Origin: Lachnospiraceae bacterium
Lineage (GTDB): Bacteria; Bacillota; Clostridia; Lachnospirales; Lachnospiraceae
Assembly: GCA_028693165.1 (NCBI GenBank)
Contig: JAQUVX010000026.1
Location: forward strand, 1 to 60,946
Length of the DNA: 60,946 bases
Reading direction: 5' to 3'
The position numbers and the translations under genes are program-made. Under the pieces are notes generated by a model. That model was not told the DNA's origin, ran no database searches, and was given only the letters and a program-made list of their open reading frames with translations. Shown piece after piece: positions 1,125-37,876 of this stretch. How positions within the stretch are numbered: position 1 is the first letter of the stretch; every line of letters begins with the position of its first letter.

Positions 1125-2312
1125 ATGAACATATCTATTTTAGTTTTGGATGGAGGGAAAAAATTGAAACTTGAGAAGTTAGATATTAATGGCATTGGAG
1201 GAATTAAGCAGTTATCACTTACATTTAATCCTGGATTAAACGTTATTTGTGGAGAAAATGGGGTTGGAAAAACGACAGTATTAAATATAATCGCAGATGC
1301 TTTTTCGTATACAAATAGAGCAATTAAGAGAAATGTTGCTGTAGAAAAAGGAACATATACGGCTAAATTCGATGTAAAAGCAGTTAATGAAGAGGTGACG
1401 GATTTTGATCCAGAGGATCACAGTGGTATGCGCAATAACTATAGAGATGCAATGTATTTAATGAATTTACGCGTGAACAGAGATATAAAATATTGTAAAT
1501 TAAATGCAGTGCCAAGTGATACGCAGCGCCCAGATTATCAATTGGGACAGCAAGCAACAGCCGGATTATCTTCTGATGAAATTAAAGGTTGGTTTGTAAA
1601 CCGCTGTCTTTACTCAAGACAAGAACGTGGATTTACGGAAGTTATGAGAAAAAATTTAGAGATGGCACAAAAATCATTTGGTATGTTGGATGAAAAAACA
1701 TTATTTGATTATATAGATCCACGTAGCAATGATGTAATTTTGAAAACTCCAAAAGGAGAAATTTATTTTGAATATTTATCATCGGGATATAAAACTTGCA
1801 TTTTTATTATTCTTGGAATATTAAAAGAGATAGAATTTAGGTTTAAAGACGTTTTGTATGACACATATAGTGGGATTATACTTATAGATGAAGTGGATAT
1901 TCATTTACATCCAACATGGCAGACTAAATTATTGAACGCTTTGAAGACAATTTTTCGGAATTCGCAAATTATTGTTACAACACATAGCCCAAGTATCTTA
2001 CAAAGTATAGAGAAAGAAGAAATCATTGCACTTACATTAAATGAAAATGGCGAGACCATAATAGAGGAACTGAATTTAGGCGAATATGGGTTACAGGGAT
2101 GGACTTTAGAAGAAATATTACAAGATGTTATGGGGATGCCAGGTACAACATCAGAATTATACGAAGTTACCATAAAAGCATTTGATAAGGCTATGGATGA
2201 TGAAAACATTCCAGAAATTAAGAGGAATTATGAAATTTTAGATAAAATGCTCCATCCAGACAGTACATTAAGAAAACTTTTACAAATCCAAATGGCAGGA
2301 ATGGAGGAGTAG
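1125..2312 (+). CDS. ptuA: Septu-type AAA/ABC ATPase PtuA
   Basis: A 395-residue P-loop ATPase of the SMC/OLD-like AAA class. Visible motifs are Walker A GENGVGKTT (43-51), the ABC signature-like LSSG (218-221), Walker B IILIDEVD (251-258) and the switch TTHSPS (285-290). In the Septu anti-phage system this ATPase works with an HNH nuclease, and the next gene encodes one with a 2-bp gap. The ATG at 1125 has AAAGGTG upstream; a TTG near 1164 with GGAGGG is a possible shorter start. The gene is clearly more AT-rich than the terminase genes and ends in its own operon, which suggests acquired cargo. It could instead be another ATPase-HNH defence pair such as a retron-associated one, but no reverse transcriptase is present. 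Confidence 0.78.
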   Translation: MNISILVLDGGKKLKLEKLDINGIGGIKQLSLTFNPGLNVICGENGVGKTTVLNIIADAFSYTNRAIKRNVAVEKGTYTAKFDVKAVNEEVTDFDPEDHSGMRNNYRDAMYLMNLRVNRDIKYCKLNAVPSDTQRPDYQLGQQATAGLSSDEIKGWFVNRCLYSRQERGFTEVMRKNLEMAQKSFGMLDEKTLFDYIDPRSNDVILKTPKGEIYFEYLSSGYKTCIFIILGILKEIEFRFKDVLYDTYSGIILIDEVDIHLHPTWQTKLLNALKTIFRNSQIIVTTHSPSILQSIEKEEIIALTLNENGETIIEELNLGEYGLQGWTLEEILQDVMGMPGTTSELYEVTIKAFDKAMDDENIPEIKRNYEILDKMLHPDSTLRKLLQIQMAGMEE

Positions 2313-2314
2313 GA

Positions 2315-3085
2315 GTGATAAAATTAGAACGACCGGATAAACCATCCGAATTAACTGAGGAAAAAGAAAAAGAGTTAGTTCAAGAATTCAAAGATACGGA
2401 GCGTGCTGTTTGGAGAAAAGATTATATTACAGAACCGTTATTTAATATGTCACATGGTAAGTGCTGTTATTGCGAAACAGTTCTCGGAACTCAAGCCAGA
2501 CCTATGAACGTAGAGCATTTTCATTGCAAAGAGGCTTATCCAAATGAGGTAGTAACGTGGGATAATCTTTTACCTTCATGTGGACAATGCAATTCAAATA
2601 AAGGAAAACATGACACTATAAAAGATGGTTTAATTATTAATCCTACTATCGATAATCCTAAGGAATATTTATATTTAAAATATTTTATGATTAAAAGTAA
2701 AGATAATCAATTGGGAAGTATTGGGAGAAGGACAGTAGAATTACTGGATTTAAATAATCGAGAACGTCTTGTTAATCCTAGGATTCTGATTGCGGATACA
2801 ATGAGACAGAAGTTAGAAAATATACATGAAAAGGCAGTAGATCTTGCAGGGAGACAGGATGGTAAACAGTACAATAGAACTAAAATAGTGAATGGAATAA
2901 GAGATATTCTTAGAATGGCTCAGCCGGATGCAGAGTATAGTGCTTTTATGTCTACAATTATTCTGACAGATGAAGATTATTTAGAAACTAGAGATATTTT
3001 AATAGCGAAAGAATTGTGGACTAAGGAATTTGAAGTGATGCATAATAAGGCGAGCGAAATAAAGCTAGATACTGAAATAAAATAA
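2315..3085 (+). CDS. ptuB: Septu-type HNH endonuclease PtuB
   Basis: 256 residues starting at GTG 2315, after AGGAG overlapping the end of ptuA. The N-terminal half is a zinc-containing HNH fold: CYC-E at 51-54, VEHF at 66-69, the WDNL phrase at 82-85 and CGQCN..KG at 89-97. The C-terminal half is helical with no recognised motif. In characterised Septu systems the HNH protein is the DNA-cleaving effector controlled by PtuA. The pair is tightly coupled, is followed by its own terminator and is AT-rich like its partner, so it is probably a moron that protects the lysogen from other phages. Confidence 0.8.
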   Translation: MIKLERPDKPSELTEEKEKELVQEFKDTERAVWRKDYITEPLFNMSHGKCCYCETVLGTQARPMNVEHFHCKEAYPNEVVTWDNLLPSCGQCNSNKGKHDTIKDGLIINPTIDNPKEYLYLKYFMIKSKDNQLGSIGRRTVELLDLNNRERLVNPRILIADTMRQKLENIHEKAVDLAGRQDGKQYNRTKIVNGIRDILRMAQPDAEYSAFMSTIILTDEDYLETRDILIAKELWTKEFEVMHNKASEIKLDTEIK

Positions 3086-3098
3086 GGATTCAAAAGCA

Positions 3099-3126
3099 GA
3101 GAGATAGCCCTGGCTGTCTCTTTTTC
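3099..3126 (+). terminator. Intrinsic terminator of the Septu operon
   Basis: GAGATAGC pairs with GCTGTCTC (one G-T pair) around a short loop and is followed by TTTTTCT. It closes the defence operon just before the terminase genes. Confidence 0.7.
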
Positions 3127-3160
3127 TATACCCAAAACAAACGAATCGAGGTGGTAAGGC

Positions 3161-14515: not shown

Positions 14516-17455
14516 ATGGCAGCCGGTGGAAATGACGGCAGTTTGAAGTTTGATACCAAGATAAATCCGGATGGTTTTATGGACGGAATCTCCACGCTGA
14601 CAAAGGCAGTCGAAAATCTGACTAAAGTAATGGAAAGTCTGTCCGGAAATATTGTAAAGCAGTTTGGCGGCGCCGGCTCAGCTGCGGAATCTGCATCCAA
14701 AGAGGTAGATACGATTGGAGAAGCTGCACAGAAATCAGAAGCGAAGGTTAAAAGCCTGCGGGAACAGATGGACGCAATTACGATCCAACACTGGGATGAG
14801 AATATGACAGATGCTGAGAATTCTGAACCTACGAATATTCCAATATCTGTTCCAGTTAGTAATGCTGGAGTATCATATGATTCAAAAGCAATGGCAATGG
14901 CGTTTGGTGAAGCTGCTGCTGAGATTCATAATTACGCGGAAGCAGTAAGCCTGTTTGGTATGCAAGCTGGTTCTGCTATGAACATGTCTGTGCAGGGAGC
15001 GTCTACGGCAAGAGTAGAAATCGAGCAAGTCGATAATGCGGTAGAAAGATCTGGTCGTTCATTCGGTTGGTTAAAGACAGCTATATCCTATGCCTTTGAG
15101 TCAGTAGGGTACACAATAGGAACATTGTTTAAAGCTATTCCTATTACGGTTAAAACAGTTACTTCTGCTTTTGTTTCGGCTACCAATGCGGTTGTAAGAT
15201 TTGGAATTGCATTAGGAACTGTTGCTGCAAATGGAGTGAAGCGTGTCATTGTGGGATTAAGGGGATTAATTAAGCCTGCCGAAAAGGCTGGAAAAAGCAT
15301 ATTGAAGCTATCGAGTATGTTCAAGCTGATGCTGATCCGCATGGCCATGAGAGCGGCAATCCAGGGTATTCGAGAGGGTATGCAGAATCTGGTACAGTAT
15401 TCCGACAGTGCAAACCAGTCCATGTCAAATCTTGTGTCGGGCATGACCTATCTCAAGAACAGCTTTGCGGCTGCCTTTGCACCGATTCTTTCCTTTGTTG
15501 CGCCGGTGTTGAACACGCTGATCAATCTGTTGGCAACAGCAATCGGTTATATCAATCAGTTCTTTGCTGCGCTCGGAGGCGGAAAGACTTTTGTCAAAGC
15601 CAAAAAGGTAAACCAGGACTACGCGAAAAGTATAGGTGCGGCTGGAGGTGCCGCAAAGCAGGCAGGAAAGGATGCAAAGAAAGCGCTGGCGCCATTTGAT
15701 GAGTTGAACACGATTCAAGAGCAGGGAGCTGGTTCTGGTGATGGAGGTGGAGGAAGCGGAGGCGGTATAGATCCGTCTGAAATGTTTGATACCGTAGCCA
15801 TTGACAGTGCGTTAAGTGATTTTGCAAATCAGGTAAAAGAGGCGTTCAAGAACAGTGATTGGAAAGGGCTTGGAACACTGTTTGGCAATAAAGTTAATGA
15901 GCTTCTCGATAGTGTAGATTGGGGCGGTGTCGGTCATAAAATCGGATTCGCACTGAATGGGGCAATCCAAACGGCATATTGGTTCCTGGATACGGTTGAT
16001 TTCAAAAACATTGGTAAGAGAATAGGTGAGCTGCTGAACGGTGCCATAGAAGAGATTGATTTCAAGTATTTGGGCCGATTGGTCGTCAAATGGTTCACCA
16101 TATTGCCGGACATCATTATTGGCGCCGTCGTATCACTTGATTGGGGACTGGTTGGAAAGAGTATTGGGGATTTCTTTATCGGTGCATTTGATGAGGCAGC
16201 CGAGTGGCTGCAGGGCTATGACTGGTCGTATATCGGCGGAATGTTATGGCAGAAAATAAAGGATCTGTTTACTGGAATTGACTGGTCTGGTTTGGCAAGT
16301 AGTCTATTTACATTTTTAGGAGCGGCTATTCGTTCCTGCGTCGGACTGCTGGGCGGTTTCTTCGGAAGTATTGGAGCAGACATTAAGGCGTGGTGGGATG
16401 CAGAAATACAGGGGCAGGATTGGAAGGAAACTGCGGGCAACCTTCTCAATGCTATTGGAGAAGGATTTGTCAATATCGGAGACTGGGTTTGGGATCATAT
16501 CGTGGAACCATTTTGTACCGCATTACTTGGAGAAGACACCTGGTCTGATGTGAAGGAAGCAGGAAACGATATCTGGAACGGATTTACGGAAGGGATTGCA
16601 GAATTTTCCGATGATCCTGGTGCATGGATCAAAGATCATATTGTCGATCCGTTTGTAAACGGGTTTAAAAATTTATTTGGCATTCATAGCCCATCAACGG
16701 TTATGGCCGAGATTGGTAAGTTCTTGATGGAAGGTCTGAAAAATGGTATTGAGAATTTTATACCAAATGTTGTGGCGAAATTCGGCGAGATCAAGTCAAA
16801 GATCTCCGAGAAATGGGATGAGGTGAAAACGGACGCATCGTCGAAGTGGTCTACAATAAAGGGTGATTTATCCAGTACGTGGGATGGAATGAAGACAACA
16901 GCCGGAACTGCTTTTGAAGATATAAAAAAGGGCATAACGGATGCATGGCAGCAGGTAAACCAGAAGACCTCTGAAGTATGGGGTAATGGCGGCATAGCGG
17001 GGATTGTTTCTGGAGCGGTAAATGGAATTATCTCATCGGCCGAAACAATGGCAAATGCTGTCATAAAAGCGATTAATGGGTTGATCAGCGGAATTAATAA
17101 AGTGAGCATCGATATTCCTGACACGCCATTTAGCAGCGGTTTCAAAATCGGGTTCGATATACCATCCCTCAATGAGGTACATCTTCCGCGCCTTGCAACA
17201 GGTACTGTGGTGCCGCCGAGAGCTGGTGAGTTTGCGGCGATCCTTGGCGACAACAATCGTGAGGCAGAGGTTGTATCTCCGGTATCTACCATGGAAAAGG
17301 CAGTAATGAATGCATTGACCAAAGCAGGAATTACCGGGGGCGGTGACATCTATCTGACAGCGGTGTTGGATGGAAAAGTAGTGTATGACGAAGTGGTGAA
17401 GCGCAACAGACAGGAAACAAAACGGGCGGGAAAAAACCCAATGCTCGCGACGTAA
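14516..17455 (+). CDS. Tail tape measure protein
   Basis: 979 residues. A helical N-terminal part (LTKAVENLTKVMESLSG) leads to a hydrophobic central region (about 170-370) with several possible membrane segments. A Gly-rich linker lies near 400-420 (GSGDGGGGSGGGID), followed by repeated Trp-rich amphipathic segments such as WKGLGTLFGNKVNELLDSVD. The C-terminal RLATGTVVPPRAGEFAAILG is common in phage tape measures. It sets tail length and helps DNA entry. Confidence 0.93.
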   Translation: MAAGGNDGSLKFDTKINPDGFMDGISTLTKAVENLTKVMESLSGNIVKQFGGAGSAAESASKEVDTIGEAAQKSEAKVKSLREQMDAITIQHWDENMTDAENSEPTNIPISVPVSNAGVSYDSKAMAMAFGEAAAEIHNYAEAVSLFGMQAGSAMNMSVQGASTARVEIEQVDNAVERSGRSFGWLKTAISYAFESVGYTIGTLFKAIPITVKTVTSAFVSATNAVVRFGIALGTVAANGVKRVIVGLRGLIKPAEKAGKSILKLSSMFKLMLIRMAMRAAIQGIREGMQNLVQYSDSANQSMSNLVSGMTYLKNSFAAAFAPILSFVAPVLNTLINLLATAIGYINQFFAALGGGKTFVKAKKVNQDYAKSIGAAGGAAKQAGKDAKKALAPFDELNTIQEQGAGSGDGGGGSGGGIDPSEMFDTVAIDSALSDFANQVKEAFKNSDWKGLGTLFGNKVNELLDSVDWGGVGHKIGFALNGAIQTAYWFLDTVDFKNIGKRIGELLNGAIEEIDFKYLGRLVVKWFTILPDIIIGAVVSLDWGLVGKSIGDFFIGAFDEAAEWLQGYDWSYIGGMLWQKIKDLFTGIDWSGLASSLFTFLGAAIRSCVGLLGGFFGSIGADIKAWWDAEIQGQDWKETAGNLLNAIGEGFVNIGDWVWDHIVEPFCTALLGEDTWSDVKEAGNDIWNGFTEGIAEFSDDPGAWIKDHIVDPFVNGFKNLFGIHSPSTVMAEIGKFLMEGLKNGIENFIPNVVAKFGEIKSKISEKWDEVKTDASSKWSTIKGDLSSTWDGMKTTAGTAFEDIKKGITDAWQQVNQKTSEVWGNGGIAGIVSGAVNGIISSAETMANAVIKAINGLISGINKVSIDIPDTPFSSGFKIGFDIPSLNEVHLPRLATGTVVPPRAGEFAAILGDNNREAEVVSPVSTMEKAVMNALTKAGITGGGDIYLTAVLDGKVVYDEVVKRNRQETKRAGKNPMLAT

Positions 17456-17467
17456 GGAGGGGAGAGC

Positions 17468-17878
17468 GTGGCATTTGAAGGTTGGTTAATCAAATTCGGA
17501 AGCACTGCACTCCCGAACCACTATCTTGAGCAGTATAGGGAAACACCAAATCAAAGGTTGGAACTTGATGCTTACCGGGATGTTGCGGCATTGCTGCATC
17601 GGGAGACCTCGCCGAATTATAAAAGCAAAATTGTAATTCCGATTCGCAAATTGTATCTGGGAGAGAAGATTGTACTTAAGGCGATTGTTGACTCCGGCAT
17701 TGTATCTGGCGGTGAGCGCGAACGAAAAGTATTTGTGACCTATTGGAACAGTGAGGTAATGGATTATGAGGCTGGTACATTTTATATGTCTGACATTGAA
17801 TATACCATTTCGCGCGTAAATGAACATAAGTTAGATATGGTATACGAACCATTTGAAATTCAGCTTATAGAATATTAG
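17468..17878 (+). CDS. Tail-tip protein, DUF6711-like
   Basis: 136 residues from GTG 17468. Beta-rich, with TPNQRLELDAYRDVAALLHR and a C-terminal YTISRVNEHKLDMVYEPFEI. Its place between the tape measure and the large tail protein is that of the distal-tail adaptor in Firmicutes siphoviruses. The function is inferred from position. Confidence 0.7.
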   Translation: MAFEGWLIKFGSTALPNHYLEQYRETPNQRLELDAYRDVAALLHRETSPNYKSKIVIPIRKLYLGEKIVLKAIVDSGIVSGGERERKVFVTYWNSEVMDYEAGTFYMSDIEYTISRVNEHKLDMVYEPFEIQLIEY

Positions 17879-17890
17879 GGAGGTGTGCTG

Positions 17891-19864
17891 ATGCTACAGG
17901 TTGAAAGCGCATTGAAAGATCTGTATAAAGCCGACAGCACCGATAAAAACATCGTATTGCATTTCTATCATCCGGGAACTACAACCCCTTATTTGATGTT
18001 ATGGGAATCCAATTATATTTTGAACGAATCAATGGAAATCGATGAATCCCTGTCGAGTACAGAGAATATTGATTTCGGAAGCTGTGAAGCTACGCAGTTC
18101 AAGATTACGCTGATCGATGTAGAAAAAAATATAAAAGGCAGTGATATGGTGGTTTACCAGACGCTCGAAGGACAGTACCCGGAGTTGAATTTATATCCAG
18201 ACACAGGTCTTTTTCCTTCTGGCTATATGATGCCGCTTGGGAGATATGTGATCCAGTCGGCAGACCGGCAGACGAACCGTAAGTACAGAGATGTCATAGC
18301 ACTGGATTACATGAGCAAATTTGATATCGATGTGTCTGAATGGTACCAAGCGCTCCTGTTTCCTGTGAGTCTGAAAGCATTCCGCTCCAGTTTGTGTCGA
18401 TATGTTGGGGTTGAGGAGAGCGTTCCTGATTTCCTTCCAAATGATACGATTATGATTGAAAAGACGCTGGATGCAGGGCAGTTGGTTGGGCGGGATGTGC
18501 TGGTGGCGTGCGAACAAATGAATGGCGTATTCGGTCATTTTGATCGTAATGGAATTTTGCAGCATATAGCGTTACAGCCAAATTATACACTACTTCCAGT
18601 GTCAGACTTGTATCCGTCGGACAATCTTTATCCGATCCTGCCCGGTGAGATGAATGAGCAGGTTTACGATGAAGACATAGCAGAAAACCTACTTAGATCT
18701 CCATGTAGATTTGAAGAGTATACGGTAAAAAGTATAGACAGGGTCCAGATCCGGCAGGAAGAGGGCGATATCGGTGCTTTTTACGGGTCCGATGGGAACT
18801 GCCTTACCATACAGGGAAATTTCCTGCTGTTTGGTAAGGCTGCGGATGAGTTAAAAGACATAGCTCAAGGCATACACGGAATGGTAAGCAGCAGGCAGTA
18901 TACCCCACACGAAGTAGAGTGTAAGGGGATGCCGTATCTGGAAGTCGGTGACACAGAACTGATTAGTCTTGGCGATGCGAACATTATTTCGTACATCATG
19001 AAGCGGACTTTGAAAGGAATCTGTGCACTCAAGGATGCACATAGCACCACGGGAGAAGAAACAAGAAGCACAGAGAGTGGTGTGAATGTTGAAATCATCC
19101 AGTTGAAAGGCAAGGCGGCGTTCCTGACAAAATCTGTAGACGAGGTATCAGTTAGGGTAATTGACCTTGCGAAAAATACAGATGCGAAATTTGCAATAAC
19201 CGCCGAGCAGATATCCGCGGAGGTGAAGCGTGCGAATGAAGCAGAGGCTGTGTTAAAGATTCAGGCAGATCAAATTTCTACATCGGTCAAGAATCTGAAA
19301 GATAATACGGAGTCCCAGATCAAGCAGATGTCAGATCAAATCCTGATGAAGGTTAGCAAGGGTGATGTGTCCAGTCAGATTTCAATCGAGAGTGGCGGAA
19401 TCAGTATTTTTGGAGATCGATTCTCGTGGTCGTCGACTTATTCCAGCATGAGTGCAGATGGAAAATTACGCTGTGTGGATGGAGAATTTAACGGGTACAT
19501 ACAGGCAACCAGTGGTAAGATCGGTGGTTTTTTGATTGAGGGAGACTCGTTAAGATCCGGAGGAGATTCCAGTATTGATTTTGGCAATGTTACGATTGAT
19601 AACACGGGTCTGCTGGCCGGAAACTGGTCTTTTTCAGACGACAATATATCCTGCATGGCCGGAATCATTGCAAATGATGATGGAAATGTGTTTGTGCACA
19701 ACAGCAGTTATTACAATGGTAAATCCGTGGCTTATGCGCTGGATGATTTACGCAGACGTATCGGTGGTAGCGGATGCGGAAGTGATTGCAGTGGCGATTG
19801 CGACGATTGGTGTGATCCTGATAATGACCATTGTAATAGTGATGATCTGATAAATGATCTATGA
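17891..19864 (+). CDS. Tail-tip/tail spike protein with Cys-Asp-rich C-terminus
   Basis: 657 residues from ATG 17891 (GGGAGGTG 6 bases upstream). The N-terminal 380 residues resemble phage tail-associated baseplate proteins, with LYP motifs (LNLYPDTGLFP, DLYPSDNLYP). Residues about 400-490 are coiled (ITAEQISAEVKRANEAEAVL), followed by a beta region (about 500-610). The last 30 residues are unlike the rest: Cys at 629, 633, 637, 641 and 648 with CxxxC spacing and Asp or Glu two residues after most of them (CGSD, CSGD, CDPD, CNSD). The radical SAM gene starts 13 bp later. The tail end looks like a modifiable core peptide; this is inference. Confidence 0.85.
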   Translation: MLQVESALKDLYKADSTDKNIVLHFYHPGTTTPYLMLWESNYILNESMEIDESLSSTENIDFGSCEATQFKITLIDVEKNIKGSDMVVYQTLEGQYPELNLYPDTGLFPSGYMMPLGRYVIQSADRQTNRKYRDVIALDYMSKFDIDVSEWYQALLFPVSLKAFRSSLCRYVGVEESVPDFLPNDTIMIEKTLDAGQLVGRDVLVACEQMNGVFGHFDRNGILQHIALQPNYTLLPVSDLYPSDNLYPILPGEMNEQVYDEDIAENLLRSPCRFEEYTVKSIDRVQIRQEEGDIGAFYGSDGNCLTIQGNFLLFGKAADELKDIAQGIHGMVSSRQYTPHEVECKGMPYLEVGDTELISLGDANIISYIMKRTLKGICALKDAHSTTGEETRSTESGVNVEIIQLKGKAAFLTKSVDEVSVRVIDLAKNTDAKFAITAEQISAEVKRANEAEAVLKIQADQISTSVKNLKDNTESQIKQMSDQILMKVSKGDVSSQISIESGGISIFGDRFSWSSTYSSMSADGKLRCVDGEFNGYIQATSGKIGGFLIEGDSLRSGGDSSIDFGNVTIDNTGLLAGNWSFSDDNISCMAGIIANDDGNVFVHNSSYYNGKSVAYALDDLRRRIGGSGCGSDCSGDCDDWCDPDNDHCNSDDLINDL

Positions 19865-19877
19865 CGGAGGATATTAA

Positions 19878-21212
19878 ATGAAGCGAATATCTGGAATGTT
19901 TAAGAGTATCTATTTGACAATCGGCCGGCAGGGGTACAGTCCCGGAGAATATAAGTGGCTGCCGTATCTCGTAGAGCAGGTGGTTGATGATGGCGTATTG
20001 CTGTGCAATATGTTCACTCGAGAAATCATTCTGCTGACAGAAGCAGAATATGCACATCCGGAAGCGGATCTGCGCCGGATACTTGCCGAACACTGGTACA
20101 TGATACCGGCCGGTCTGGATCCAAGGAGCCTCTGCTATCTGTTTAAGCATAGCCACAATGCAAGGTTTGGCAACCGGAGCGATAAGACGCAGCTGTGCAC
20201 AATCCTCACCACAACAGAATGTAATGCGCACTGTCCGTACTGTTATGAGGCGGGATGCGAAAAGCGGACAATGACAGATCAGGTAGCTGGAGACGTTGCC
20301 GACTGGATTGAAAAGCATTGTGATCCGGACAAGGTGCACCTGAAATGGTTTGGTGGTGAGCCGTTGTGCAATGCGCATGCCGTCACGGTGATCTGCCAGC
20401 ATCTGCAAAAAAAGGGGATCAACTATGACAGCTCCATGGTATCAAACGGGTATCTGCTGGATCAGCATGATCGGACAGAGCTGCTGGATCTGTGGCGGCT
20501 GAACCGGGTGCAGATTACACTGGACGGCACAGAGGATACATATAACCGCATTAAGAGGATATCAGGCGCGAGAGGTGCTTACCGGCGCGTGCTGGACAAT
20601 ATCAGATACGTCCTTGATCTTGGTATCCGGGTGAACATTCGGCTTAACCTGTCACTGGAAAATTACAATGATCTGACGGAGCTGATCGGGATCCTGCGGG
20701 CGGAGTTCGGCGGGTATCGTAATATCTTTGATGTATATGCAAAACCATTATTCGAGGGAGATGATTACCAGCTGACAGGGCAGGAGAGAGCGCAGGTCTA
20801 TGGTCAGTATATTGACCTGGAAATGCGGCTATGCGACGCAGGCCTGCGGGACACACTCGGGATGCCAAAAGTAAAGCATCGCCAGTGTATGGCAGATAAC
20901 GGGCACAGTGTTGTAATCCTGCCAGGTGGGGAGCTTGGGTTGTGCGAGCATCATCTTGATGATGAGTATGTCGGGACAATTTATAACGATGCGCGGGATG
21001 GCGCGATAGTGGAGGCTTGGAAAGAGCACGCAGATGAGCTACCGGAATGCGCAGCCTGTTTTTATTACCCCGTCTGCCTTCAGCTGAAAAAGTGTCCTGG
21101 CAAAACAATCTGTAATGCAGCACACCGCGGATATCTGAAATGGAGAATTCAGGAGTCGATGGCGGCGGCCTACAAAAAAGAGCAGGAAGCAGAAAGGAAA
21201 GCAGATGTATAA
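19878..21212 (+). CDS. Radical SAM/SPASM peptide maturase in a phage tail module
   Basis: 444 residues. The radical SAM [4Fe-4S] motif is C115-x3-C119-x2-C122 (CNAHCPYC), followed by the GGEP motif at 159-162 and VSNGYLL further on. The C-terminal region carries a SPASM-type cysteine set (RQC, LGLCEHH, CAACFYYPVC, KKC, ICN) for auxiliary clusters. The N-terminal 90 residues (CNMFTREIILLTEAEY) resemble the leader-binding region of peptide maturases. Such enzymes install thioether or C-C crosslinks in ribosomal peptides. It is coupled to the Cys-rich tail protein upstream and to a 50-residue protein downstream by an 8-bp overlap. The substrate is inferred. RBS GGAGG. Confidence 0.9.
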   Translation: MKRISGMFKSIYLTIGRQGYSPGEYKWLPYLVEQVVDDGVLLCNMFTREIILLTEAEYAHPEADLRRILAEHWYMIPAGLDPRSLCYLFKHSHNARFGNRSDKTQLCTILTTTECNAHCPYCYEAGCEKRTMTDQVAGDVADWIEKHCDPDKVHLKWFGGEPLCNAHAVTVICQHLQKKGINYDSSMVSNGYLLDQHDRTELLDLWRLNRVQITLDGTEDTYNRIKRISGARGAYRRVLDNIRYVLDLGIRVNIRLNLSLENYNDLTELIGILRAEFGGYRNIFDVYAKPLFEGDDYQLTGQERAQVYGQYIDLEMRLCDAGLRDTLGMPKVKHRQCMADNGHSVVILPGGELGLCEHHLDDEYVGTIYNDARDGAIVEAWKEHADELPECAACFYYPVCLQLKKCPGKTICNAAHRGYLKWRIQESMAAAYKKEQEAERKADV

Positions 21213-21357
21213 GATCAGCAAAGAAGAGCGGGAGTCGCTGCTCTACATTATCAATCATCTGACCGTAACCGGTCCGTATCAGGGAGGTCTGCTGAATAAT
21301 GCGGCTGGAATATTACAGTCATTAAAACAAGAAGAGGATAAAAAGGAGGAAATTTAA
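21205..21357 (+). CDS. Small protein coupled to the radical SAM gene, 50 aa
   Basis: ATG 21205 overlaps the radical SAM stop. The product is helical and charged: ISKEERESLLYIINHL, a PYQGG turn, then AAGILQSLKQ and an acidic-basic end. It could be a chaperone or recognition partner of the maturase or an unrelated structural protein. No family is recognised. Confidence 0.6.
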   Translation: MYKISKEERESLLYIINHLTVTGPYQGGLLNNAAGILQSLKQEEDKKEEI

Positions 21358-21360
21358 ATT

Positions 21361-22275
21361 ATGGCAGTAAAAACAGTACAAGCCATTATCAATGGCGTCA
21401 CGACGACATTATCGCTTAATAGTACGACGGGTAAGTATGAGGCGACCATTACGGCACCGACCACGTCATCCTATAACAATAATGATGGACATTATTACCC
21501 AGTAATGATTAAGGCAACAGATCAGGCGGGGAATGTTACCACAAAGGACGATACAGATACCACGCTTGGTGCAGCGTTAAGGTTAAGAGTCAAGGAAAAG
21601 GTTGCACCGCTCATCACGATCACCAGTCCGACGGCATCCGCACGCCTGACAAATAACAAGCCGCAGATTGCATTTACCGTAACCGATGCGGACTCTGGCG
21701 TTAATCCGGATACCATTAAGATCACCATTGGTAGTACCGTGATTACAACCGGTATTACCAAGACGGCTACATCGGACGGCAAGGGCTATACCTGTACCTA
21801 CACGCCAACAACGGCACTTGCGGACGGCAGCAACACGATCAAGGTTGATGCATCTGATTATGATGGCAATTCGGCCAGCCAGAAGAGCGTAACCTTTATC
21901 GTTGACACGGTACCGCCGACTCTCAGCGTCACGTCGCCGGCGAGCGATCTGGTAACCAATCAGGCAGCCTGCACCGTAACCGGTAAGACCAATGATGCGA
22001 CATCCAGTCCGTGTAAAGTGACCATTAAGCTTAACAGTGGTACAGCGCAGGAAGTAACGGTCAATGCGGATGGCACATTTAGTAAGGCGTTGACGCTGGT
22101 GGCCGGAGCCAATACGATTATTGTGGTATCCACAGACAGCGCGGGCAAGTCCTCTACTGTAACTCGGACTGTAACACTGGATCAGGTAGCGCCGGTAATC
22201 AGGGCCGTGACGATTACCCCGAACCCGGTAGATGCTAGCAAGACCTGTGTGATCAGTGTGGAGGTAACCGACTGA
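21361..22275 (+). CDS. Ig-like repeat tail/fibre protein
   Basis: 304 residues made of about three bacterial Ig-like domains. The recurring phrase is a Pro-rich start (VAPLITITSP, VPPTLSVTSP, VAPVIRAVTITPNP) followed by seven-strand patterns with DGSNTIKVDASD and AGANTIIVVSTD. Such domains extend tail fibres or decorate virions and often bind carbohydrate. The C-terminal TITPNPVDA recurs in the gene at 22880. RBS AAAGGAGG. Confidence 0.8.
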   Translation: MAVKTVQAIINGVTTTLSLNSTTGKYEATITAPTTSSYNNNDGHYYPVMIKATDQAGNVTTKDDTDTTLGAALRLRVKEKVAPLITITSPTASARLTNNKPQIAFTVTDADSGVNPDTIKITIGSTVITTGITKTATSDGKGYTCTYTPTTALADGSNTIKVDASDYDGNSASQKSVTFIVDTVPPTLSVTSPASDLVTNQAACTVTGKTNDATSSPCKVTIKLNSGTAQEVTVNADGTFSKALTLVAGANTIIVVSTDSAGKSSTVTRTVTLDQVAPVIRAVTITPNPVDASKTCVISVEVTD

Positions 22276-22288
22276 TAGGAGGTACGCC

Positions 22289-22624
22289 ATGGCAGTATCA
22301 AGGGTTTTTGGCAGAGTGGACGGAGTGAAGGTTGTTTTGCAACAAGGAGAAGGGGACCGGTGGAGTGTGCCGGTTCCCATGGATCAGGATGGAGAATATG
22401 TGGTTGAAATCATTGCGGAGGATGAAGCGGGTAATCAGTCCTGCATGGCAAGGCTATTATTTGTAGTCAATACATCACTGCTTTGTGTGCATATGATGCC
22501 AATCCTGTATTGCGCGGAGCTGCGGGAGCCGACTTACAGTGCAGGAATTGCACCTAAACAGTATTATGCCGAATTGATAGAATCACAGTGCACAAAGAAA
22601 GGAGGCAAGCTATGCAGCGTATAA
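22289..22624 (+). CDS. Small Ig-like phage protein
   Basis: 111 residues. The N-terminal half is one Ig-like domain (VDGVKVVLQQGEGDRWSVPV, DGEYVVEIIAEDEAGNQS). The C-terminal half has unusual Cys and Tyr-Ala-Glu repeats (YCAELREP, YYAELIESQC). It overlaps the next gene by 13 bp. The role is probably structural in the tail tip. Confidence 0.65.
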   Translation: MAVSRVFGRVDGVKVVLQQGEGDRWSVPVPMDQDGEYVVEIIAEDEAGNQSCMARLLFVVNTSLLCVHMMPILYCAELREPTYSAGIAPKQYYAELIESQCTKKGGKLCSV

Positions 22625-22878
22625 GTTTTGACGCCGGGGAGCAGAGGCATATCAAGATCTTGATACATTCCATCAAGAACGATCCTTTTGTGATTAGAAA
22701 TGCAAAATGGGAGCTGGTGTGTGCGGGAACAGTTGAATCTTACGGAGACTGCGAAATCGAGGAACACGTGATAGATGCTTTTATCGCTCCGCAAAGTAGG
22801 TCAATGTACCGGCTAAGAATACAATATGAGATTGCCGACGAAGTGCTTGTGGAACAGATGGAAGTGGTGGTGGTTTGA
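22612..22878 (+). CDS. Phage tail-tip protein of unknown function, 88 aa
   Basis: ATG 22612 with GGAGG 6 bases upstream. A short all-beta protein (HIKILIHSIKNDPFVIRNAK, ending in a run of hydrophobic Val). No family recognised. It lies between Ig-like and LYP-repeat genes in the same operon. Confidence 0.6.
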   Translation: MQRISFDAGEQRHIKILIHSIKNDPFVIRNAKWELVCAGTVESYGDCEIEEHVIDAFIAPQSRSMYRLRIQYEIADEVLVEQMEVVVV

Positions 22879-22879
22879 T

Positions 22880-23101
22880 ATGGAAGACATTTATATCGAG
22901 GCGGTTACCATTACCCCGAATCCGGTTGATGCCGGCGCTCGTTTTAAAGTTGAGGTTGAAATATATACTTTATATCCAGCGGAAAATCTGTATCCAGCCA
23001 TCAGTTTGTATCCAGGAGAAGATCTCTTTACACTGTGTCCGGCTACGGATATTTATCCGGAAAACAATTTGTATCCAACAGAAGGAGGAATAGAGTTATG
23101 A
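22880..23101 (+). CDS. LYP-repeat phage protein, 73 aa
   Basis: The start ATG overlaps the previous stop region. The first 28 residues repeat the end of the protein encoded at 21361 (AVTITPNPVDA then a VEVEI strand). The rest is a run of LYP or IYP units spaced about six residues (TLYPAENLYPAISLYPG, IYPENNLYP), also found in the large tail protein at 17891. The repeats may form a beta or polyproline stalk. Confidence 0.65.
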   Translation: MEDIYIEAVTITPNPVDAGARFKVEVEIYTLYPAENLYPAISLYPGEDLFTLCPATDIYPENNLYPTEGGIEL

Positions 23102-23658
23102 CAATAAGCGGATTTGTTGCTTATGTAAAACAGATTTGGGCGAACAAGCCCAGTACGTCATCTCCATTATCAGCGGACAGGCTGAATCATATGGAAGGCG
23201 GAATTAAGGGAAACAGTGATGCAATCAATGCGATTGCGGCAGCCGTTGTGAACCAGATCGTAAATGATCCAAATAAAATCGCATCCATGGCGGCGTTGTA
23301 TAGTGTCAAACAGGAGCTGGATACAACAAATAGTAATTTTAAAAACTTAATAACACCAATAGTGTTAACACCAAGCACAAATGTTTCTAGCAGCATATAT
23401 ACGTGTATCAAGATTGGTAATTATATCATAGGGTCTATCCAGGCTACAATTACAGGTGTGACTGTATCTGGTTGGACGAAATTATTTAATTTTTCCCCTG
23501 ACCAGACATTTGATCACAATTCTGCCTTTGCTCTTGTATCAGGCCAATTAGTAGTAGATGGATCTGTTTCATCCGGGAGCAAAGATATAAGAGGATTTTT
23601 AGCTGAAAACTGTAACGGTAAATATTTTTCAGCTACATTCATCGTTCAAACAAAATGA
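23098..23658 (+). CDS. Tail fibre protein with variable C-terminus
   Basis: 186 residues from ATG 23098 (GGAGGAA upstream). The N-terminal 77 residues (LSADRLNHMEGGIKGNSDAI) are the usual phage fibre attachment region, then a receptor-binding-like beta domain of about 109 residues. The change between them falls exactly at the short inverted repeat at 23328-23339. The stop is directly next to the stop of the opposite-strand cassette. Confidence 0.75.
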   Translation: MTISGFVAYVKQIWANKPSTSSPLSADRLNHMEGGIKGNSDAINAIAAAVVNQIVNDPNKIASMAALYSVKQELDTTNSNFKNLITPIVLTPSTNVSSSIYTCIKIGNYIIGSIQATITGVTVSGWTKLFNFSPDQTFDHNSAFALVSGQLVVDGSVSSGSKDIRGFLAENCNGKYFSATFIVQTK

Positions 23659-37135: not shown

Positions 37136-37219
37136 GCGGGAGTGCTGGAATTGGCAGACAGGCTAGACTAAGGATCTAGTGGCAGTTATGTCGTGTGGGT
37201 TCAAGTCCCATCTCCCGCA
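37136..37219 (+). tRNA. tRNA-Leu (AAG)
   Basis: 84 nt with a class II long variable arm. Acceptor GCGGGAG pairs with CTCCCGC; anticodon stem CTAGA/TCTAG around CTAAGGA gives anticodon AAG. A34 is expected to be deaminated to inosine. CCA is not encoded. Confidence 0.93.
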
Positions 37220-37228
37220 TATTTTGTG

Positions 37229-37317
37229 ATAAGGAGGGACCCATGCAAAGCATGGGAGGATGCCTTATTACCTGCGCAAAGCCCATCCGGACGAAGTTCG
37301 GATTCTGATGGCTTTGC
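37229..37317. repeat. Two adjacent hairpins between tRNA genes
   Basis: The first hairpin (37229-37268) nests ATAAGG/CCTTAT around CCCATGC/GCATGGG. The second (37276-37317) pairs GCAAAGCC with GGCTTTGC and ATCCG with CGGAT. A 21-codon frame with AAGGAGG starts at 37243, but its coding value is doubtful. The arrangement is repeat-like or a processing/attenuation structure between the tRNAs. Confidence 0.5.
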
Positions 37318-37335
37318 TGCATACTTTTATTTTAT

Positions 37336-37408
37336 TCCTCGATAGCTCAGTCGGTAGAGCACGCGGCTGTTAACCGCGCTGTCGTAGGTTCAAGTCCTAC
37401 TCGGGGAG
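37336..37408 (+). tRNA. tRNA-Asn (GTT)
   Basis: 73 nt. Acceptor TCCTCGA with TCGGGGA, D arm AGCTCAGTCGGTAGAGC, anticodon loop CTGTTAA, T arm GTAGG/CCTAC. Discriminator G. CCA is not encoded. Confidence 0.95.
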
Positions 37409-37461
37409 CTTAGATTTTCGGTCTTGACTTTTTTGTAAGATTTAAAAAGATGAAAAAGTGA

Positions 37462-37490
37462 TTGACAAAGATTGGAAAGTCTATTATAAT
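37462..37490 (+). promoter_or_regulatory. Promoter of tRNA-Leu(CAG) copy 1
   Basis: TTGACA, 17 bases, TATAAT: a near-perfect sigmaA promoter. Confidence 0.8.
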
Positions 37491-37530
37491 GTAACACGTT
37501 GACTCGGTGAATCTACTGAGACGATGGTTT

Positions 37531-37614
37531 GCAGAAGTGGCGGAATTGGCAGACGCGCACGGTTCAGGTCCGTGTGGTAGCAATACCTTGTGGGTTCGAC
37601 TCCCATCTTCTGCA
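37531..37614 (+). tRNA. tRNA-Leu (CAG), copy 1
   Basis: 84 nt with a long variable arm. Acceptor GCAGAAG/CTTCTGC, anticodon stem CACGG/CCGTG around TTCAGGT (anticodon CAG). Identical in sequence to the copy at 37793. Confidence 0.95.
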
Positions 37615-37620
37615 CGATGA

Positions 37621-37662
37621 GAAAAGAGTGAAGAGCATGAGCTTTTCACTCTTTTCGATTTT
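37621..37662 (+). terminator. Terminator of tRNA-Leu copy 1
   Basis: AAAAGAGTGAA pairs perfectly with TTCACTCTTTT, followed by CGATTTT. Confidence 0.75.
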
Positions 37663-37720
37663 AAAGAAATTGCATATATTTTCATGGAAAAAGAAATTAT
37701 TTATTTTTTTGGAAAAGTTA

Positions 37721-37749
37721 TTGACAAATCACCTCAATGCCAGTATAAT
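37721..37749 (+). promoter_or_regulatory. Promoter of tRNA-Leu(CAG) copy 2
   Basis: TTGACA, 17 bases, TATAAT. Confidence 0.8.
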
Positions 37750-37792
37750 ACGTTATGTTGATTCGGCAGCATGCCTGACGAATGAATGGTTC

Positions 37793-37876
37793 GCAGAAGT
37801 GGCGGAATTGGCAGACGCGCACGGTTCAGGTCCGTGTGGTAGCAATACCTTGTGGGTTCGACTCCCATCTTCTGCA
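37793..37876 (+). tRNA. tRNA-Leu (CAG), copy 2
   Basis: Same 84-nt sequence as copy 1 with its own promoter and terminator; a tandem duplication of the transcription unit. The promoter regions have diverged outside the hexamers. Confidence 0.95.

Follow-up and report, generated by a model that had tools for sequence, protein, structure and literature searches.

A 60,946-nucleotide contig from a Lachnospiraceae bacterium (the window, meaning the whole stretch of DNA analysed) carries a prophage in which the gene for a radical S-adenosylmethionine (SAM)/SPASM enzyme directly follows that for a tail-tip protein with a Cys- and Asp-rich C-terminal end. The tail end is very probably the substrate of the enzyme, and the two genes likely form a tail-maturation cassette in which a maturase encoded by the phage would modify the preceding tail protein at its C-terminus. 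Our full reading is that some phages of anaerobes use a dedicated maturase to crosslink the tail tip through Cys-to-Asp/Glu thioethers, giving a ranthipeptide-like knot on the virion, and that a natural-product enzyme lineage would thereby have become a virion-assembly factor travelling with interchangeable Cys-rich ends from one kind of tail protein to another; we assign this a probability of roughly 55%. The gene pairing, the joint occurrence or joint lack of enzyme and Cys, the integrity of the enzyme and its predicted fold can be taken directly from the sequences, and a modified tip would presumably be carried on virions and be of benefit to the phage.

The prophage spans approximately 5–26 kb of the window and encodes minor and major head proteins, a tape measure protein, tail proteins and an endolysin. 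In the tail module the tape measure gene is followed by a small DUF6711 gene and then by the tail-tip gene (Table 1). Roseburia phage Jekyll encodes a relative of the tail-tip protein, annotated as ‘putative tail spike’ (29.7% identity across 68%), and its gene likewise comes after a tape measure gene and a single small gene; a sequence search of the PDB with the window protein as query found no relative. The open reading frame (ORF) extends to a GTG (17885–19864, 659 residues), and the better start is the ATG at 17891, six bases 3′ of GGAGGT, for a product of 657 residues. A preliminary description of this DNA had placed five Cys at residues 629, 633, 637, 641 and 648, which is exact when numbered from the ATG (631, 635, 639, 643 and 650 from the GTG), and the CxxD motifs it named (CGSD, CSGD, CDPD and CNSD) are all found in the tail end. 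The final 29 residues contain five Cys, ten Asp/Glu and no Lys/Arg. As a check on chance, at least five Cys in the last 60 residues were found in 15 of 440 distinct, complete, non-overlapping ORFs of at least 150 residues, taken from both strands of loci L185–L263; the 15 comprised four enzyme-followed tails, five enzymes, four minus-strand frames and two other plus-strand ORFs.

The enzyme gene starts 13 bases past the tail stop codon and is complete, as had been claimed, and it has its own ribosome-binding site. The expected cysteines are also in place: the CX3CX2C motif (Cys 115, 119 and 122) and the SPASM set, three and seven Cys respectively, are invariant in an alignment of 56 sequences and, together with a fold match, identify a radical SAM/SPASM enzyme. 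An AlphaFold2 model of the protein has a predicted local distance difference test score (pLDDT) of 92.0 and a predicted template modelling score of 0.89, superseding an earlier model built from five sequences (pLDDT 67.8). The nearest solved structures by sequence, 5wgg and 5why, which we take to be CteB of the SCIFF ranthipeptide, are 13–15% identical to the enzyme. The model aligns with this maturase across model residues 28–435 (381 residues aligned), and at least 48 of the aligned residues fall in model residues 28–102, where pLDDT is mostly above 90. CteB possesses an N-terminal recognition element (RRE) of the type found in maturases of ribosomally synthesized and post-translationally modified peptides (RiPPs), according to PMC8172795. 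The modelled N-terminus aligns with this RRE-bearing part, in agreement with the leader-binding-like N-terminus noted earlier, and, judged from the whole-model alignment, the protein is predicted to be an RRE-bearing RiPP maturase. Unlike the proposed phage substrate, that of CteB is a short peptide encoded by the host.

The enzyme scored below the cut-offs of all of the following families: TIGR04463 rSAM_vs_C_rich (141.4 bits, cut-off 525), the PapB family NF047865 (86.5 bits, and 60–86 bits for four other phage enzymes; cut-off 340), the QhpD family TIGR03906 (47.1 bits, cut-off 453), the anaerobic sulfatase maturases TIGR03942 (42.9 bits, cut-off 349) and the CXXX-repeat maturases TIGR04115 (42.7 bits, cut-off 350). 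TIGR04463 was the best NCBIfam match of the five phage enzymes scanned (76–141 bits), all of them far below the cut-off. No separate leader peptide gene was seen near the window enzyme, the Cys-rich candidate core being the end of the tail protein.

Single-protein scans of viral contigs gave no match with the enzyme of the window or that of G005, a related genome from the same genus, and the enzyme of contig L046 matched only itself; alignments were required. Scans with alignments found a related enzyme on nine distinct contigs, in eight of which (L046, L167, L168, L170, L171, L172, L173 and L175) it lies directly 3′ of a tail or fibre gene. Adding the window and L045, the prophage in G005, brings the loci with this arrangement to 10 out of the 11 found in viral contigs or prophages; nine of the ten are distinct, as the L171 and L172 enzymes are near copies. 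The ninth contig, L174 from IMG/VR, has its enzyme in a recombinase-bearing element and not in a tail module, and that enzyme lies outside the phage clade. The spacing between tail and enzyme genes ranges from a 25-base overlap to a 47-base gap. The co-occurrence in prophages that the preliminary description had proposed to look for is thus found at ten loci, and at nine of them the tail ends in a Cys-rich core (23–79 residues, 5–15 Cys and at most one Lys/Arg).

The tenth tail, that of L175, is the case that had been named as refuting the idea, an enzyme beside a tail gene lacking a Cys-rich end, and it weighs against our reading. The L175 fibre (431 residues, L175 2525–3820) ends in Asp-Gly-Glu-Ser-like repeats with two Cys, followed by CGPGDGL, and the enzyme behind it is cut by the contig end with its CX3CX2C motif retained. 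Ser may replace Cys here, the reaction may be independent of Cys, or the pair may have drifted; as such, the fibre is a possible Ser-based or Cys-free variant. The terminal CGPGDGL is shared by the L045, L167 and L175 tails, and CGPGD ends that of L168 (4 of 10 carriers). GPGD within the last 30 residues occurred in 2 of 57 complete enzyme-less tails, which have identical ends where the motif is not terminal and is without Cys. This hints at CGPGD as a recognition tag.

The features common to the carriers are the Cys-rich end and the enzyme, and at least three unlike tail architectures are represented. The L045 and L167 tails contain Prophage_tail (PF06605, Tal; 39.3 and 56.5 bits), these being the two positives among the scanned carriers, and L046 contains fn3; the window tail has neither domain and matched PHROG tail families instead. 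Carrier tails are 13–23% identical to the window tail, with five invariant columns in the full tail alignment, and hhalign gave a probability of 0.6% for the window and L168 families, i.e. no detectable kinship, for profiles that are shallow. Enzymes of this kind were found in 2 of 24 genomes of the window’s genus, its own genome included. Relatives of the enzyme in phage records numbered 14, all below 60% identity, and in the seven short records among them and one Erwinia phage no enzyme directly behind a tail gene was seen by eye.

The clearest link between enzyme and Cys comes from the tail family of the L167/L168 type. From the best 80 of 317 relatives, 62 loci were used in which the tail ORF was complete and 500 bases or more followed it, leaving out 16 tails cut at the locus end, one locus without a usable ORF and one with less than 500 bases downstream. 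All six enzyme-followed tails had 4–10 Cys in the last 60 residues. None of the 56 enzyme-less tails was Cys-rich or had more than two Cys there (Fisher P = 1.6e-8, a value inflated by relatedness, and five of the six enzyme-followed tails belonged to the query). A tree built from the tail bodies shows three changes in the presence of the enzyme, which gives two independent pairs on supported branches (three on all branches), and in each of the two supported pairs the Cys change in the same direction as the enzyme. The L201 tail, 69% identical to that of L167, has no enzyme and ends in an acidic, Gly-rich stretch with no Cys, and L190, with a tail 60% identical to that of L173 and the same gene order minus the enzyme, has an acidic end, also with no Cys. 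Together with the pairing at the loci above, these Cys-less sisters support the interpretation, made in the preliminary description, of a protein C-terminus as the core peptide of the adjoining maturase. Homologs of the window tail were matched in 10 of 392 genomes, the window’s own counted; five of the others with readable ends (G425, G340, G136, G401 and G377, the last two being partial matches), as well as phage Jekyll, have no enzyme in the stretch examined and no Cys-rich end.

The same loci bear on the possibility that the Cys-rich end is an unmodified tip, binding a metal or cluster or knit by disulfides, with the enzyme acting elsewhere in host or phage. Numerous Cys and acidic residues could indeed bind metal. 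Nevertheless, enzyme and Cys-rich end are present and absent together in the tail family, and no metal motif common to the cores was seen by eye. In L167, L168 and L170–L173 the enzyme gene almost abuts the following baseplate or fibre gene or overlaps it, and no small Cys-rich precursor gene was seen in between. We therefore regard an unmodified tip as improbable.

Which reaction would be catalyzed can be approached from the spacing of Cys and acidic residues. Eight of the ten tails were compared at eight spacings, omitting L172 (a near copy of L171) and L175 (two Cys). Asp or Glu at Cys+4 was observed 27 times versus 16.0 in shuffled sequences (P = 0.0004) and at Cys+3 23 times versus 16.2 (P = 0.03), with P at least 0.09 for the remaining six spacings, and 63 of 75 Cys had an Asp or Glu within five residues (P = 0.0024). 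In the window tail alone the commonest spacing is +3. PapB is described as joining Cys to the β-carbon of Asp in CX3D motifs, and to Glu as well, tolerating zero to six intervening residues, with a loss of 2 Da (PMC9413430). QhpD links Cys to methylene carbons of Asp and Glu within a protein subunit (PMC8172795), and the action of a radical SAM enzyme on a protein therefore has a precedent. The enrichment at Cys+4 and the chemistry of PapB and QhpD thus make a Cys-to-Asp/Glu thioether the most likely product, an assignment we favour with some reserve. Alternatively, the enzyme could modify the tail end by another reaction (a sactionine at the α-carbon, ether or carbon-carbon links, epimerisation or Cys oxidation), with Asp, Glu, Ser or Gly rather than Cys as the conserved target. 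This is a lesser possibility, given that nine of ten tails are Cys-rich, that two sister tails lacking the enzyme lack the Cys as well and that Asp/Glu at Cys+4 exceeds chance.

In a quick tree of 101 enzymes, with long branches including that of L046, nine phage enzymes form one clade (SH-aLRT 93, not starred), nested in a group of 80 genome-contig relatives from Bacillota, Bacteroidota, Actinomycetota and one Lentisphaerota. These are the best 80 of 140 relatives, and one of them, L047, is the G005 contig. The other 79 loci, judged by eye from the longest ORF immediately up- and downstream, appear RiPP-like, many having small precursors, PqqD-like proteins (two such calls were checked) or partners of ~245 residues, one of which had no Pfam or NCBIfam match when scanned. 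No tail gene with a Cys-rich end was seen among these flanking ORFs, and L179 and L180 are likewise RiPP-type in appearance. The position of the phage clade among RiPP-type relatives, and the cassette-like gain or loss in sister phages, would also be expected if the pairing were a by-product of gene mobility, in which one phage cassette of tail end and enzyme spread by recombination and its Cys-rich peptide, made as an extension of a tail protein, is cleaved from it to become a classical RiPP bacteriocin. We consider this very unlikely, since no leader protease, peptidase or exporter was found among the window neighbours at 14516–23658 (eight proteins scanned against NCBIfam, nine against Pfam), the Cys-rich ends have different sequences and are attached to dissimilar tail proteins, and sister-group precursors are separate small genes where visible by eye.

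If the tail tip is crosslinked by the enzyme as we propose, the RRE-like N-terminal domain would bind the tail protein close to its C-terminus, a 5′-deoxyadenosyl radical would activate a side-chain carbon of Asp or Glu, a SPASM cluster would hold the Cys thiol, and a thioether would form, with 2 Da lost for each link. Such links would give a structural virion protein a tip that is redox-stable and resists proteases. Lachnospiraceae are anaerobes, and such a tip could be useful to their phages, disulfides being unreliable in this setting.

Among known systems, PapB, which forms the Cys-Asp S-Cβ thioethers of the ranthipeptide freyrasin, is similar in combining a radical SAM/SPASM enzyme and an RRE with repeated Cys-Xn-Asp/Glu motifs (PMC9413430), the phage tails being enriched at CX3D/E. 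It differs in that PapA is a small precursor peptide, whereas the phage target is the end of a tail protein of 355–1024 residues. QhpD, the maturase of the quinohemoprotein amine dehydrogenase γ subunit, shares with the proposed system a protein subunit as target and the joining of Cys to Asp or Glu (PMC8172795), but its target is a subunit of a host enzyme and not a virion, and the window enzyme scores 47 against the 453 of TIGR03906. Radical SAM genes as such are already known in phage genomes, e.g. those of Campylobacter phages and Erwinia phage phiEaH2 (PMC3322345). The Erwinia phage radical SAM proteins have ~25% identity over 40% of the window enzyme, and in phiEaH2, the single Erwinia phage examined, the gene is not directly behind a tail gene, unlike in the window. 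Covalent hardening of a virion protein is also a feature of phage HK97, whose capsid crosslinks are self-catalysed Lys-Asn isopeptide bonds in the head; the system proposed here differs by its separate radical enzyme and its location in the tail.

Radical SAM crosslinking is known for small peptides and for a subunit of a bacterial enzyme, and a literature search confined to open-access papers (all preprints and most subscription papers were outside its scope) found no description of a virion protein matured by such an enzyme. Our reading, if true, would represent a new kind of covalent stabilisation in phage structure, with radical SAM crosslinking used to build a virus particle. It would offer a possible explanation for tail tips that hold together under conditions unsuited to disulfides, as well as modular protein ends that come with their own crosslinking enzymes.

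Table 1. Features of the tail module and enzyme region, in window coordinates.
Feature	Position	Strand	Basis or remark
Tail tape measure protein	14516..17455	+	PHROG 1535, 270 bits
DUF6711 tail-module protein	17468..17878	+	Pfam PF20458, 146 bits
Tail-tip protein, proposed substrate	17891..19864	+	PHROG 18190, 558 bits; PHROG 6616 ‘tail protein’, 66 bits
Cys/Asp-rich, Lys/Arg-free C-terminal end with stop codon, proposed core	19775..19864	+	Residue composition
Ribosome-binding site GGAGG of the enzyme gene	19866..19870	+	Sequence; seven bases before ATG
Radical SAM/SPASM maturase, 444 residues	19878..21212	+	Pfam PF04055, 59.5 bits; best NCBIfam match TIGR04463, 141 bits (cut-off 525)
Predicted N-terminal RRE-like domain, residues ~21–97	19938..20168	+	Strands and helices in model; CteB aligned from 28, TigE from 21
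Radical SAM cluster motif CNAHCPYC, residues 115–122	20220..20243	+	Three Cys invariant, 56 sequences
SPASM region, Cys 337, 356, 391, 394, 400, 406 and 412	20886..21113	+	All seven invariant, 56 sequences
50-residue ORF overlapping the enzyme gene by 8 bases	21205..21357	+	No Cys, no family or phage match
Fibre-like protein with Ig-like domains	21361..22275	+	Pfam PF09136, PF19077; PHROG 11157

The 50-residue protein said to overlap the enzyme is confirmed. It matched no NCBIfam, Pfam or PHROG family and had no relative in 50,697 phage records (E up to 10), and no counterpart was seen by eye in the other enzyme loci. Being without Cys and without relatives, it was rejected as a precursor peptide, and it is probably not part of the tail and enzyme system. 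Small Cys-rich ORFs near the window enzyme that are preceded by a ribosome-site-like stretch were also rejected, as they are minus-strand or intragenic frames and one Big_3_4 protein (a 111-residue ORF at 22289–22624 with five Cys).

Lipoprotein-like proteins of ~230–250 residues with Cys-rich C-terminal ends are encoded at L133 377–1129 (G602) and L138 2723–4126 (G385), adjoining two related radical SAM enzymes and one, respectively; by eye neither is from a phage. Proteins of 244–250 residues with CC-x(3)-CC near the start (L129 3264–4016, G635; L130 150–884, G389) are followed 3′ by one or two small ORFs and then a related radical SAM enzyme. Downstream of the enzymes in L092, L096, L107, L109 and L113 lie lipoprotein-like ORFs with acidic, Pro- or Trp-containing ends (e.g. 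EYELPEVPIG), hinting at a different chemistry in this branch of sister enzymes. In phiEaH2 (L164, NC_019929), three tandem small ORFs at 2105–3149 adjoin two radical SAM genes. They have similar starts (ISLKNIRD, INLKDIQN) and ends rich in Cys-Gly-Gly or Cys-Ser-Gly; the third corresponds to gp086, and the other two are read in a different frame from the annotated gp088 and gp087. They resemble unannotated precursors with Cys repeats that would belong to a second, distinct radical SAM system of phages.

Past the enzyme, the window has a run of short ORFs at 21361–22878, the first two with Ig-like domains, and the ORF at 21361..22275 matches the interior of the very long PHROG 11157 profile (positions 2202–2490 of 3825); the run is possibly a split fibre gene. 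Further along, at 37136–37876, three tRNA-Leu genes (aag, cag and cag) and one tRNA-Asn gene lie inside 0.75 kb.

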